A stretch of DNA of 46,096 nt from Bacteroidota bacterium (GTDB taxonomy: Bacteria > Bacteroidota > Rhodothermia > Rhodothermales > UBA10348): contig JAQBZH010000020.1 in NCBI GenBank assembly GCA_027622005.1, positions 1 to 46,096 of the forward strand, written 5' to 3'. Made by a program: the position numbers and the translations under genes. Numbering within the stretch: position 1 is the first letter of the stretch; every line of letters begins with the position of its first letter. The notes below the pieces were generated by a model. It was not told where the DNA came from. It did not search any database and was given only the letters and a program-made list of their open reading frames with translations. This document shows, piece after piece, positions 17,818 through 22,012 of the stretch.

Positions 17818-18279
17818 ATGACTGCCAGAACTGTTGCCAAACTTGCATGGTCTGTTCCTGTATTTTTATTGGCACTGACCGTGCATCAGGCCTATACGGC
17901 GGTTCAGCTTAAGAAAACCATGGACCAGGGTACGTTGACGTGGGCCGAAGTGACGCGGTACGAGCGATCCGACCGCAAAGACGTAACCGAGGTAGAATTA
18001 GATTTAATCGTGCATTTGCCGGATGGAAGTCAATTTGAGCGCGAAAAACTCACGCTTCCTTACTCGATTGGTCACCGAGTGGAAGCCGATACGCTCGAAG
18101 TTATGGTGCTCCAAGGAGCGGCCCAAGAAATCGTCATCAAAGATATCGGCGACACGCAAGTCAGAATTGCCTGGAGCAATATGGCTATGAGCTTTATTGC
18201 TCTGGTTATGGCGTTTTCGGGTGTTTTCGCGTGGAATCGGATGATGCGCAATCCGGCGGTGACACCAGACTCCGTTTAG
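17818..18279 (+). CDS. DUF3592-like membrane protein
   Basis: 153 aa with an N-terminal membrane helix (about 9-28), a central beta-rich extracytoplasmic domain (about 35-115) and a C-terminal helix (about 118-140) with a short tail. The two-helix plus beta-domain plan and the EVELDLIVHLPDGSQFEREKL / LPYSIGHRVEADTLEVMV pattern resemble DUF3592 proteins. Family assignment is from overall look, not a diagnostic motif. Its function is unknown. It ends 20 bp before the TPP riboswitch region and is a separate unit from the receptor gene. Confidence 0.7.
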   Translation: MTARTVAKLAWSVPVFLLALTVHQAYTAVQLKKTMDQGTLTWAEVTRYERSDRKDVTEVELDLIVHLPDGSQFEREKLTLPYSIGHRVEADTLEVMVLQGAAQEIVIKDIGDTQVRIAWSNMAMSFIALVMAFSGVFAWNRMMRNPAVTPDSV

Positions 18280-18300
18280 TATTTTGACTGGGCCGGACGT

Positions 18301-18381
18301 ATATTCCGGCAGTTGGGGGTGCCTTTCTGGCTGAGATCATACTCCTTGAACCTGTCCGGGTAATGCCGGCGTAGGGAAACA
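18301..18381 (+). promoter_or_regulatory. TPP riboswitch (THI element)
   Basis: Conserved aptamer blocks occur in order: GGGGTGCC (18316-18323), CTGAGA (18331-18336, pyrimidine sensor), GAACCTG (18348-18354) and CCGGGTAATGCCGGCGTAGGGAA (18356-18378, with the pyrophosphate-sensor GCGTAGGGA). TTCC at 18304-18307 can pair with the terminal GGAA to close P1. It sits about 160 bp before the TonB receptor ATG. A 7-bp hairpin (ACACGTT 18401-18407 with AACGTGT 18421-18427) could belong to the expression platform. There is no U-run, so control may be at translation or further downstream. TPP binding should shut the receptor off. Confidence 0.93.
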
Positions 18382-18541
18382 GCGATTTGGCAATCGAGAA
18401 ACACGTTCCGCCTTACAGAAAACGTGTCATTCGTCCGCTTTCAAGGCCCTTCCACCTTCAAACTGATGTATTTCGGGTGTGAATTTACCCAGTCGGAATG
18501 AATCAGATATTTTTTACGCGATAGTTGTTGAATTTGGAAAA

Positions 18542-21112
18542 ATGGCCCTGAAATCCCGAAATATTGAGTTTTCCGCACGCGTCTTGGTCCTTGCCGTGGT
18601 AGCTGTTTGTTTGCAGTTTTATCCTGGCGAGGAGGTGTCGGCACAGGTCATTAGCCTCCAAAAGGGAGTGCTTTCAGGGATGATTACGGGCGAAAGCCAA
18701 CGTCCGTTGGCTGGAGCAACCATTCAAATGTTTGTCGTAGGGTCCGATTTAGCCCGATTTGGAGCTACCTCCGCCGAAAATGGCAGCTTTCAATTTTTCG
18801 GAATTCCCGAAGGCCGATACGATGTCCAGATCACGTATGTAGGATTTGGCGCAAGACGCTATCCGGTTCTCATTGAAGCCGACAAAACGGCCCAGCTTGA
18901 CGTCGAGATGACCGCGGAAGCGGTAGTTTTCGATGAGATCGTGGTCAGTTCGGGGCGTGCTCGCGAGCAGCTCTCGCCTGTAACGTTTTCCAATATTTCT
19001 GCCGAAGAACTGGGACGACAACCGGACATGAAAGACCTCCCGGTGCATCTGGCGCGGCAACCATCTATAACTTTTCATTCGGAAAACGGCAATGCGGTTG
19101 GGTATTCGACGCTCAGGATGCGTGGTTTTGACCAGCGAAGGTTAGCGGTATCCATCAACGGCATACCGCAAAACGATCCGGAAGAGTTCAACGTGTTCTG
19201 GATCAACTTTTTTGACATTCAGGGCGCGGTTCAAGACATCCAAATTCAGCGCGGATCGGCGTCGTCAGTATATGGCACGGCGGCAATCGGGGGGGCCATC
19301 AACGTTCGCGCCCTTCCGTACACCCCGGATTTTAATGCTACGCTGCAGATCGGCGGAGGCGCGTTCGGGACCCGGCGATATTCTGCCGCAGTGAATTCTG
19401 GACTCTTGAACAGTAAATACGTGTTTTTCGGCCGTTTAAGCCGGTTAGAGTCCGATGGATACAGGGATTGGTCCTGGACAGAGTTTTGGCGCTATTTCGT
19501 AGGGATTACTCGATACGGAGATCGCTCGACACTCACACTGCAATCGTACGGCGGCCCGCAAAAGGATGGGTTGGCCTTTATAGGCATTCCCAAAGCTGCT
19601 AACAATAAGACGGTCGACGACGGATTCGGTGGTACCATCCATCGAAAGTCCAACGCATCGAGTGCTACAAAAGACATGGAATCCTTCCATCAGCCGCACG
19701 TCGAGGTGTTACACACATTTGACTTGTCATCCGAGTGGCAAATCAATCAAAAGATGTTTTGGGTGAAAGGGGAAGGGTATTTCGATTTTGGTGGTACGTT
19801 TCGAAGCGCCAACTACTTGCGGCTACCGGCAGGATTTGTTGGTGATGGCGATAGAAGCCTGCCGCTTTTCATCTCGCGACCTGATGTCTCGGTACTTTTT
19901 CGGGCATACCTCGATCAGTGGCAGATTGGTTGGATGCCGCGAGTTACCCGAACCTCCGAGAATGCGACGACGACTATTGCGCTCGAGGCTCGTCTGCACC
20001 GAAGCCACCGATGGGGACGGATTCAGGAGTCATTTGGCATTCCAGAAGAGTTTGTCGGTTCTGCCAACGACGTACGAGTCTATTCGTTTAAAGGAGAAAA
20101 AACCATTGCTTCGGCGTCCGTGTCGCATTTAAGGCGATTCTCCGATTTATGGGCCGTTGGCCTTGATGCCCAGTTTACGACCATGAAGTATCGTATTTGG
20201 GACGAAGCTTTTTACGGGACTTCCTTCGAAAAACCGTATGTGTTTGTAAATCCACGACTCGGGATTACTTATCGACCAGAGCAAGCGGTCAGCGCTTACG
20301 CCAGTCTGGCTTATTCCAGCCGCGAACCCCGGATGAAAAATCTGTACGATGGTGAAGAAGCAGGTGAAGGGTTCCTTCCTCAATTTGAAACAGGGTCCGA
20401 AGGACGCCCCGACACCGACAAACCGTTTATCAAACCAGAACACCTCGTAGACGTCGAATTAGGTGGAACGTGGAAAGGCCAGCGATTTAAGATCAGTTCC
20501 AATCTATTCCTCATGCAATTCAAAGACGAATTGGTACCAAGCGGTGGCCTCGATCAATACGGCGTACCCCGAACTGGAAACGCCGACAAGAGCCGGCACG
20601 TTGGGATTGAGGTAGACGCGGCTGTTAAAGTGACCAAAGGACTGGATTTTGCAGGTAATTTTACATGGTCCCACAATCGATTTATCCAATTTGATGAGTT
20701 TGTGACCCTGGGCGACTTTTCGACAACTGCGATCGATCGATCAAAAAACTCGATTGCTGGATTTCCCTCACAAAGCGGAAACGCGATAATGACCTATTCG
20801 AGGAGCGGCTTGGTAGCCTCGCTGATGACGTCTCTAGTAGGCAAACAATTTGTTGACAACGGAAACGGAACGGATAACCTGGGTCAAAAAAACGACGACC
20901 TGACCCTCGAATCATTCGTTTTAGTTGATGCTGCCATCCACTACGCGTTCGCACAGGGATCGGTTTTGGATGGACTTACGGTCGGATTGGACGTCAATAA
21001 CATCATGGACACCAAGGTCTTAACCTTTGGTCAGGTCAGCTTTGGCAGTCCCGAATTTTTCCCTGCTGCCACGAGGCATGCCTTCCTTTCGTTGAAATAC
21101 CGGGTAAAATAA
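18542..21112 (+). CDS. TonB-dependent outer-membrane receptor, predicted thiamine transporter
   Basis: 856 aa from ATG 18542. A GTG 63 bases earlier is in frame but would put 21 non-signal residues ahead of the signal peptide. The signal peptide (about 1-34) ends at VSA-Q. A carboxypeptidase-regulatory-like beta sandwich (about 40-125; GMITGESQRPLAGATI, YDVQITYVGFG) follows. Then come a TonB-box-like FDEIVVSSGR, the plug (about 130-245; LRMRGFDQRR, GSASSVYGTAAIGGAIN) and a 22-strand-type barrel. The last residues (FLSLKYRVK) end in Lys rather than the usual aromatic residue. Substrate inference rests on the TPP riboswitch directly upstream. Thiamine-regulated TonB receptors are known in Bacteroidota. 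Its stop is 6 bp from the stop of the convergent operon. Confidence 0.92.
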   Translation: MALKSRNIEFSARVLVLAVVAVCLQFYPGEEVSAQVISLQKGVLSGMITGESQRPLAGATIQMFVVGSDLARFGATSAENGSFQFFGIPEGRYDVQITYVGFGARRYPVLIEADKTAQLDVEMTAEAVVFDEIVVSSGRAREQLSPVTFSNISAEELGRQPDMKDLPVHLARQPSITFHSENGNAVGYSTLRMRGFDQRRLAVSINGIPQNDPEEFNVFWINFFDIQGAVQDIQIQRGSASSVYGTAAIGGAINVRALPYTPDFNATLQIGGGAFGTRRYSAAVNSGLLNSKYVFFGRLSRLESDGYRDWSWTEFWRYFVGITRYGDRSTLTLQSYGGPQKDGLAFIGIPKAANNKTVDDGFGGTIHRKSNASSATKDMESFHQPHVEVLHTFDLSSEWQINQKMFWVKGEGYFDFGGTFRSANYLRLPAGFVGDGDRSLPLFISRPDVSVLFRAYLDQWQIGWMPRVTRTSENATTTIALEARLHRSHRWGRIQESFGIPEEFVGSANDVRVYSFKGEKTIASASVSHLRRFSDLWAVGLDAQFTTMKYRIWDEAFYGTSFEKPYVFVNPRLGITYRPEQAVSAYASLAYSSREPRMKNLYDGEEAGEGFLPQFETGSEGRPDTDKPFIKPEHLVDVELGGTWKGQRFKISSNLFLMQFKDELVPSGGLDQYGVPRTGNADKSRHVGIEVDAAVKVTKGLDFAGNFTWSHNRFIQFDEFVTLGDFSTTAIDRSKNSIAGFPSQSGNAIMTYSRSGLVASLMTSLVGKQFVDNGNGTDNLGQKNDDLTLESFVLVDAAIHYAFAQGSVLDGLTVGLDVNNIMDTKVLTFGQVSFGSPEFFPAATRHAFLSLKYRVK

Positions 21113-21118
21113 AAAGGG

Positions 21119-22012
21119 CTACCAGGTCATCAGCTTCATACAGAAAACGGAGCCGCCGGACTTTAGAAACTCGTCCGTGTCGAGTTCGATTACTTCGAAT
21201 CCGTGGCTTCTAAGCGCTGCGTTCGTCTGTTCGCACCCCTTTTGAATGAGGACGTGTTTTCGATCCGGGCAATGGGCATTGCACGCAAACAAGGTCCGCG
21301 CTTCGTTTTCCGGAGCCTCGATCACCACGGGGAAAAAGTGCCGAATGAGCGCCCTTCCTTCGCCAGTAAATGCGTCAGGATAAATGAGAACCGTATCGTC
21401 ATCCAGAATACACATACACGTGTCTAGATGATAAAATTCGGGGTCTTCCAGGGCCAATAACATAATGGGAACGCCCAGCTTCTCAGAAATCAGTTCATAG
21501 ACGCCAGGGTCAGTCCGGAAACCAAAACCACCCCAAATAAGCCGTTTTCCTGAATGCCAGAGGGCATCTCCCATTCCTTCAAACTCGGTCGTACCATTCG
21601 CCAGGTCGTCAATAATATCGTATCCAAGATTCTCAAAGTGACGTCGGAAGTATTGGACTTCGCGAGCGCGCTCAGGAGCAAACATTTTGGAAAGCACTAC
21701 ACCTTTCCGGCGTCCATCTTCCGATACATAAGGAAGCGTTTGATTAGCGCAAAACACCATATCCGGGAGGCCCTGAATGCCGCCCACTTCATCAACTTCA
21801 AGTCCACATTGGACATACGCGCTTTTGAGAGATATCCAATCTTTCCGGGCCTGTGCCCGATCGACTTCGCCAATGTTGCCGCTCATATGAGCATTGATGA
21901 CGTAGGTCACGTCAAAGTGCTCGGGAGAGGTCATTAAAATGCGGGTAGGATGCGGCAAAAACGGTAAGTTGGCGAGATCAAAATTGATATCCGCGACGCG
22001 CCGATGGGTCAT
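21119..22012 (-). CDS. Amidinotransferase/dimethylargininase-fold hydrolase
   Basis: 297 aa, guanidino-group-modifying superfamily (arginine deiminase, dimethylarginine hydrolase, amidinotransferase). Motifs are LPDMVFCANQ, EFEGMGDALW (acidic substrate-binding residues), FYHLDTCMCIL (catalytic His) and the C-terminal SGGSVFCMKL, whose cysteine is the expected nucleophile. It has no signal peptide. It should hydrolyse or transfer the amidino group of an arginine-like compound. The exact substrate (arginine, methylarginine, other) cannot be told by eye. It is the last gene of a four-gene operon, starting 2 bp after the lipoprotein stop, and abuts the TonB receptor tail to tail. Confidence 0.85.
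   Translation of the reverse strand: MTHRRVADINFDLANLPFLPHPTRILMTSPEHFDVTYVINAHMSGNIGEVDRAQARKDWISLKSAYVQCGLEVDEVGGIQGLPDMVFCANQTLPYVSEDGRRKGVVLSKMFAPERAREVQYFRRHFENLGYDIIDDLANGTTEFEGMGDALWHSGKRLIWGGFGFRTDPGVYELISEKLGVPIMLLALEDPEFYHLDTCMCILDDDTVLIYPDAFTGEGRALIRHFFPVVIEAPENEARTLFACNAHCPDRKHVLIQKGCEQTNAALRSHGFEVIELDTDEFLKSGGSVFCMKLMTW

Follow-up and report, generated by a model that had tools for sequence, protein, structure and literature searches.

A TPP riboswitch and a predicted omr1/OMthi-type TonB-dependent receptor form a conserved pair in Rhodothermales without detectable thiC

A TPP riboswitch precedes a TonB-dependent receptor gene

The window analyzed here, a stretch of 46,096 nucleotides from a draft Rhodothermales genome (Bacteroidota; contig JAQBZH010000020.1 of assembly GCA_027622005.1), carries a TPP riboswitch aptamer and, behind it on the same strand, a gene for a TonB-dependent outer-membrane receptor. 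The locus comprises the following features:

18305..18394, forward strand: TPP riboswitch aptamer (THI element), full length (Rfam RF00059 and RNAalifold fold)
18310..18314, forward strand: 5' strand of aptamer stem P1, CAGTT (homologue alignment; RNAalifold pairs 6-10 with 85-89)
18331..18336, forward strand: CTGAGA, invariant block of the TPP aptamer (columns unchanged in all aligned homologues)
18378..18382, forward strand: 3' strand of P1, AACAG (alignment and RNAalifold)
18395..18541, forward strand: leader separating the aptamer from the start codon, the presumed expression platform (scan, fold and spacing comparison)
18542..21112, forward strand: gene for a predicted omr1/OMthi-type TonB-dependent outer-membrane receptor of 856 aa (Pfam, tree, AlphaFold/Foldseek)

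The initial annotation had claimed a TPP aptamer here and named a below-threshold covariance score as refutation. In a cmscan search of the whole window, the region matches RF00059 with 65.1 bits, above the gathering cut-off of 54.3 (E 1.2e-10), and the untruncated match covers the model end to end (1-105). The TPP fold also emerges unprompted when RNAalifold is given 23 family homologues and no fold. Of 21 pairs, 2 show compensatory changes. Both belong to P1, and one of them is UA in 8 homologues, CG in 9 and UG in 3; most remaining pairs are invariant. Score and covariation thus confirm 18305-18394 as a TPP riboswitch, for which TPP binding and repression are predicted. It is the single TPP match in a covariance search of the window's whole genome (2.79 Mb, 97.5% complete). 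P1 of the window's aptamer has one A.A mismatch (18311/18381), otherwise seen only in the sister genome G026.

The ATG at 18542 is 147 nt away when counted from the end of the aptamer and 159 nt when counted from where P1 ends, the latter agreeing with the spacing of about 160 bp first reported. The reading frame also allows a GTG start at 18479; the ATG is likelier, with a signal-peptide-like stretch behind it. From this N-terminus the protein continues with a carboxypeptidase-regulatory-like domain, a plug and a barrel, and Pfam recognizes CarboxypepD_reg, Plug (54.5 bits) and the TonB barrel (92.7 bits). The C-terminal lysine remarked on in the initial annotation is real (..KYRVK), but we reject it as a peculiarity, since homologues have R, K, D, W, N, P or Q as their last residue.

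The AlphaFold model of the receptor has a mean pLDDT of 77 and a pTM of 0.74. Its top Foldseek match in the PDB is the PQQ receptor PqqU (TM 0.82 by target, 16% identity), and most of the next matches are siderophore receptors; sequence identity in these fold-level matches is 12-16%. These structural matches support the modeled receptor fold, not a cargo. A PDB sequence search with the receptor returned TonB receptors of a general kind and matches to unrelated domains, and nothing else. Since the downstream gene (21119-22012) lies on the opposite strand, the receptor is monocistronic here; among 28 loci compared, 18 have the same opposite-strand neighbor.

The pair is conserved in the family and replaces riboswitch-thiC in the order

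We compared 27 genomes of the same GTDB family (f1) and 114 genomes of the order. Exactly one TPP riboswitch is present in 24 of the 27 family genomes. An orthologous receptor, 50-72% identical to the window's in the relatives, lies directly behind it in all 23 with downstream sequence, the window included; the remaining riboswitch-bearing genome had too little downstream sequence and was left out of the receptor count. Across the order, the riboswitch precedes a homologue of the window's receptor in 43 genomes (f1, 23; f2, 1; f3, 8; f4, 1; f6, 5; f13, 2; f14, 3), with a ThiC match in 0 of the 43. It precedes thiC itself in 21 other genomes, 17 identified by tblastn and 4 by coordinates; one truncated case (G071) was set aside in the order-wide riboswitch count.

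By this gene content, the riboswitch-receptor pair is a replacement for riboswitch-thiC in those genomes of the order without thiC, and its lineage-wide extent is the new part of our findings. One order thus offers a natural contrast, in which the single TPP riboswitch guards thiC in predicted makers of the pyrimidine and the receptor in non-makers. Because of this contrast, a receptor gene in an uncultured member of the Rhodothermales would mark its bearer as dependent on B1 pyrimidine.

Family f13 also shows other arrangements. In six of its genomes, five of them without thiC, a TPP riboswitch stands directly before a short-chain-dehydrogenase-like gene (L183:717-1502 and L175:692-1462, also L111, L167, L177 and L182), and further f13 TPP riboswitches precede TenA and THI5-like genes.

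Thiamin genes of the genome and its relatives

The initial annotation reported no thiamine biosynthesis gene nearby. This is correct for the receptor's surroundings, of which a scan covered ten genes, but not for the rest of the genome. The genome-wide check for thi genes that it recommended recovered thiO-thiS-thiG-tenI-thiD, followed by tonB in the same direction (L139:6813-11272, C40), as well as thiE (176.5 bits against a cut-off of 145.1) and thiL (306 bits). A homologous tonB stands behind thiD in 4 of 7 family genomes inspected, and a B1-linked TonB is possible on this arrangement.

Profile searches of the draft genomes found no ThiC in any of the 27 family genomes, the window's included, with a model that matches in control genomes. 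Similarly, the catalytic domain of thiamin pyrophosphokinase (TPK) was found in 0 of 114 order genomes, with a model that does detect TPK in relatives (f26/f29) and in 7 control genomes. With no thiC detected, and with the thiazole branch, thiD, thiE and thiL present, the organism would need the pyrimidine half of B1: apparently it cannot make this half and probably has to import it.

In three genera of the family (g5, g7 and g8), profile searches found neither ThiE nor a strong ThiG match. Three genomes of g5 and g8 (G014, G015 and G018) keep the riboswitch and ThiL, and the receptor is seen in G014 and G018, which are 98-99% complete. Families f3 and f14 likewise keep receptor and riboswitch and have no strong ThiG match. 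ThiL is also kept in a set of five f1 genomes (G013, G014, G015, G017 and G018) where ThiC, ThiE, TPK and a strong ThiG match went undetected. ThiL-bearing genomes without detected TPK, and in some genera without ThiE, raise the question of the form in which B1 enters the cell and of its route to thiamin monophosphate.

A search for an inner-membrane transporter, also recommended at the outset, did find a PnuC-family gene (L071:7735-8316, C3) on another contig, far from the receptor. This gene could encode PnuC or the thiamin type PnuT; it adjoins PHP-domain and unknown genes, and its PDB match is the nicotinamide riboside PnuC. PnuC occurs in 22 of 27 family genomes, with no thi neighbors, and the copy in the window's genome has no TPP riboswitch or kinase neighbor. 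It is missing from G020 and G021, both receptor-bearing and at least 95% complete. Given these absences and the lack of thi neighbors, we do not uphold PnuC as a dedicated inner-membrane partner and keep it as a possibility.

Kinship of the receptor and operons of its relatives

A profile built from the Rhodothermales receptors gives 256-825 bits to TPP-linked receptors from other parts of the phylum, compared with 26-44 bits for Escherichia coli FepA, BtuB and FhuA and for receptor-like sequences from within the order. Maximum-likelihood analysis unites 46 TPP-linked receptors in one clan with 99/99 support against four non-TPP sequences (FepA, BtuB, FhuA and one receptor-like sequence from the order), the outgroup branches being long. 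The same tree has a branch (96/96) that sets the 28 receptors of the order apart from the rest. We therefore place the window's receptor in a phylum-wide, TPP-coupled clan and consider it best filed with omr1/OMthi, a kinship to BT2390 that is drawn from profile and tree rather than from direct alignment.

More distant members of this clan stand in larger operons. In four f26 genomes and in G162 (f29), a TPK gene lies directly after the receptor, with both TPK domains in all five, and it is followed by a sodium:solute symporter gene, Pfam-confirmed in the three loci tested. The order of riboswitch, receptor, TPK and sodium/solute symporter points to thiamin as the ancestral cargo. Elsewhere, two TonB C-terminal proteins are encoded directly behind a TPP-linked receptor (L260:326-1752; G118, family f21), where TonB may come under riboswitch control.

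Regulation

Other TPP riboswitches use terminators, and a stem is present downstream of the aptamer in the window. A scan of 18100-18700 found no stem plus U-run, and folding and scanning of the 147-nt leader found neither a terminator nor a clear ribosome-site hairpin. The minimum free energy of aptamer plus leader is no better than that of shuffled sequences (z 0.49). No sigma-70 promoter was found by a scan that is uninformative for this phylum. The start codon follows P1 at a distance of 4, 8 or 9 nt in three genomes of the family, including one from the same genus as the window; all other spacings are at least 31 nt and vary between genomes. A distance of 4-9 nt leaves no room for a terminator, and closure of P1 could cover the ribosome site directly. 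From these spacings and the missing U-run, we regard transcription termination as unlikely and control of translation as the likelier mechanism.

Control of translation also fits Bacteroides thetaiotaomicron, where thiamin leaves the OMthi transcript unchanged even though the receptor has genetic importance (PMC5613172). Taken together, these points mean that transcript levels with and without thiamin, proposed as a check in the initial annotation, are a weak test and would not by themselves refute riboswitch control.

Proposed function and cargo

We propose that the TPP riboswitch very probably controls an omr1/OMthi-type receptor that imports a pyrimidine-bearing compound of the B1 pathway, and that TPP shuts off its synthesis. 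When intracellular TPP is low, the receptor would be made and would import, with TonB energy, a compound containing the pyrimidine ring, whether thiamin or an ester of it, or an HMP-type precursor. At high concentration TPP would close the aptamer and stop receptor synthesis, most likely at translation. Anatomy, conservation and gene content are what we observe; TPP binding, repression and its translational level, transport and cargo are what we infer. A riboswitch-controlled receptor importing thiamin or a precursor, as first predicted, is the best-supported reading: the pair is kept in every informative family genome, it replaces riboswitch-thiC, and its clan adjoins TPK in relatives.

The nature of the cargo is more finely balanced. 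Intact thiamin or a phosphate ester has an even chance in our estimate, with TPP reached through TMP and ThiL by way of either an unrecognized thiamin kinase or direct import of TMP. The operon of the relatives couples the receptor to TPK, an enzyme that acts on thiamin, and the receptor's plug motifs are near-invariant in genomes with and without the thiazole branch. Set against thiamin are the undetected TPK throughout the order and the retention of thiG, thiE and thiD in most of the family, which would be superfluous if thiamin were imported. Because the thiazole half would be made and no TPK is detectable in the window's genome, an HMP-type pyrimidine precursor is a real alternative. Under this alternative, to which we give a substantial but lesser probability, the pyrimidine half (HMP or its amino or formyl relatives) would be joined to home-made thiazole by ThiD, ThiE and ThiL. 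It accords with a thi gene set that has the thiazole genes, thiE and thiL but neither ThiC nor a TPK to use thiamin, with the description of HMP auxotrophy as the commonest B1 auxotrophy in marine microorganisms (PMC11452348), and with the f13 aptamers of the same family before pyrimidine-salvage genes. The known relatives of the receptor are nevertheless tied to thiamin, and a molecule as small as HMP may require no receptor of its own. What places thiamin or its ester ahead of HMP is the persistence of orthologous receptors where the thiazole branch and ThiE are lacking: neither G014 and G018 nor families f3 and f14 could be supplied by HMP alone.

A cargo of another kind, such as a siderophore or a PQQ-like cofactor, with an incidental riboswitch link, would accord with PqqU and the siderophore receptors among the Foldseek matches. 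Those resemblances are confined to the fold, however, and the TPP linkage is kept phylum-wide for one receptor clan, so we regard such a cargo as highly improbable. Returning to pyrimidine-bearing cargo, we suggest only tentatively, and with more doubt than conviction, that the omr1-type receptor of this lineage became, or also serves as, a receptor for HMP or AmMP/FAMP. If true, a TonB-dependent receptor would be taking up a vitamin precursor of very small size, and its gene would be controlled by the sole TPP riboswitch in a genome where thiC and TPK are undetected.

Comparison with known systems

The pairing of a TPP riboswitch with a TonB receptor is already known elsewhere in the phylum. 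In B. thetaiotaomicron, the TPP riboswitch-regulated OMthi (BT2390) matters to thiamin supply, as a biosynthesis mutant without it needs approximately 10 times more thiamin (PMC5613172). The window's locus shares with OMthi its Bacteroidota setting, a TonB-dependent receptor gene immediately behind a TPP riboswitch, and predicted B1 uptake. B. thetaiotaomicron, however, has further TPP-controlled operons (thiSEGCHF-tenI and pnuT-tnr3), whereas the receptor is the only TPP target in the window's genome, where thiC and TPK were not detected. The combination of OMthi with TPK and a PnuT partner under the same control is likewise not what we find: no TPK was detected, and the PnuC homologue is unlinked.

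In Caldithrix abyssi, Cabys_3975-3977 combines a TPP riboswitch, a TonB-dependent receptor, a sodium-solute symporter and a thiamin pyrophosphokinase, and its receptor is, according to the authors, highly similar to BT2390 (PMC5317091). The riboswitch lies 163 nt before the receptor, and the make-up of the operon is that of the f26/f29 relatives. The window's lineage, in contrast, has no symporter or kinase beside the receptor.

Among marine bacteria, omr1 of SAR86 and Flavobacteriales MAGs is described in auxotrophs with a nearby TPP riboswitch and potential B1 transport (PMC10881298). The likeness extends to a TonB-dependent protein, potential B1 transport, a riboswitch close by and auxotrophy; the portions of that account considered here make no mention of Rhodothermales or of an order-wide switch between thiC and receptor. 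Finally, thiV of SAR11, an HMP sodium symporter gene behind a TPP riboswitch in an HMP auxotroph (PMC11452348), is likewise an uptake gene under a TPP riboswitch in a pyrimidine auxotroph, as our bacterium is predicted to be. ThiV is an inner-membrane symporter, whereas the window's gene encodes a predicted outer-membrane receptor.
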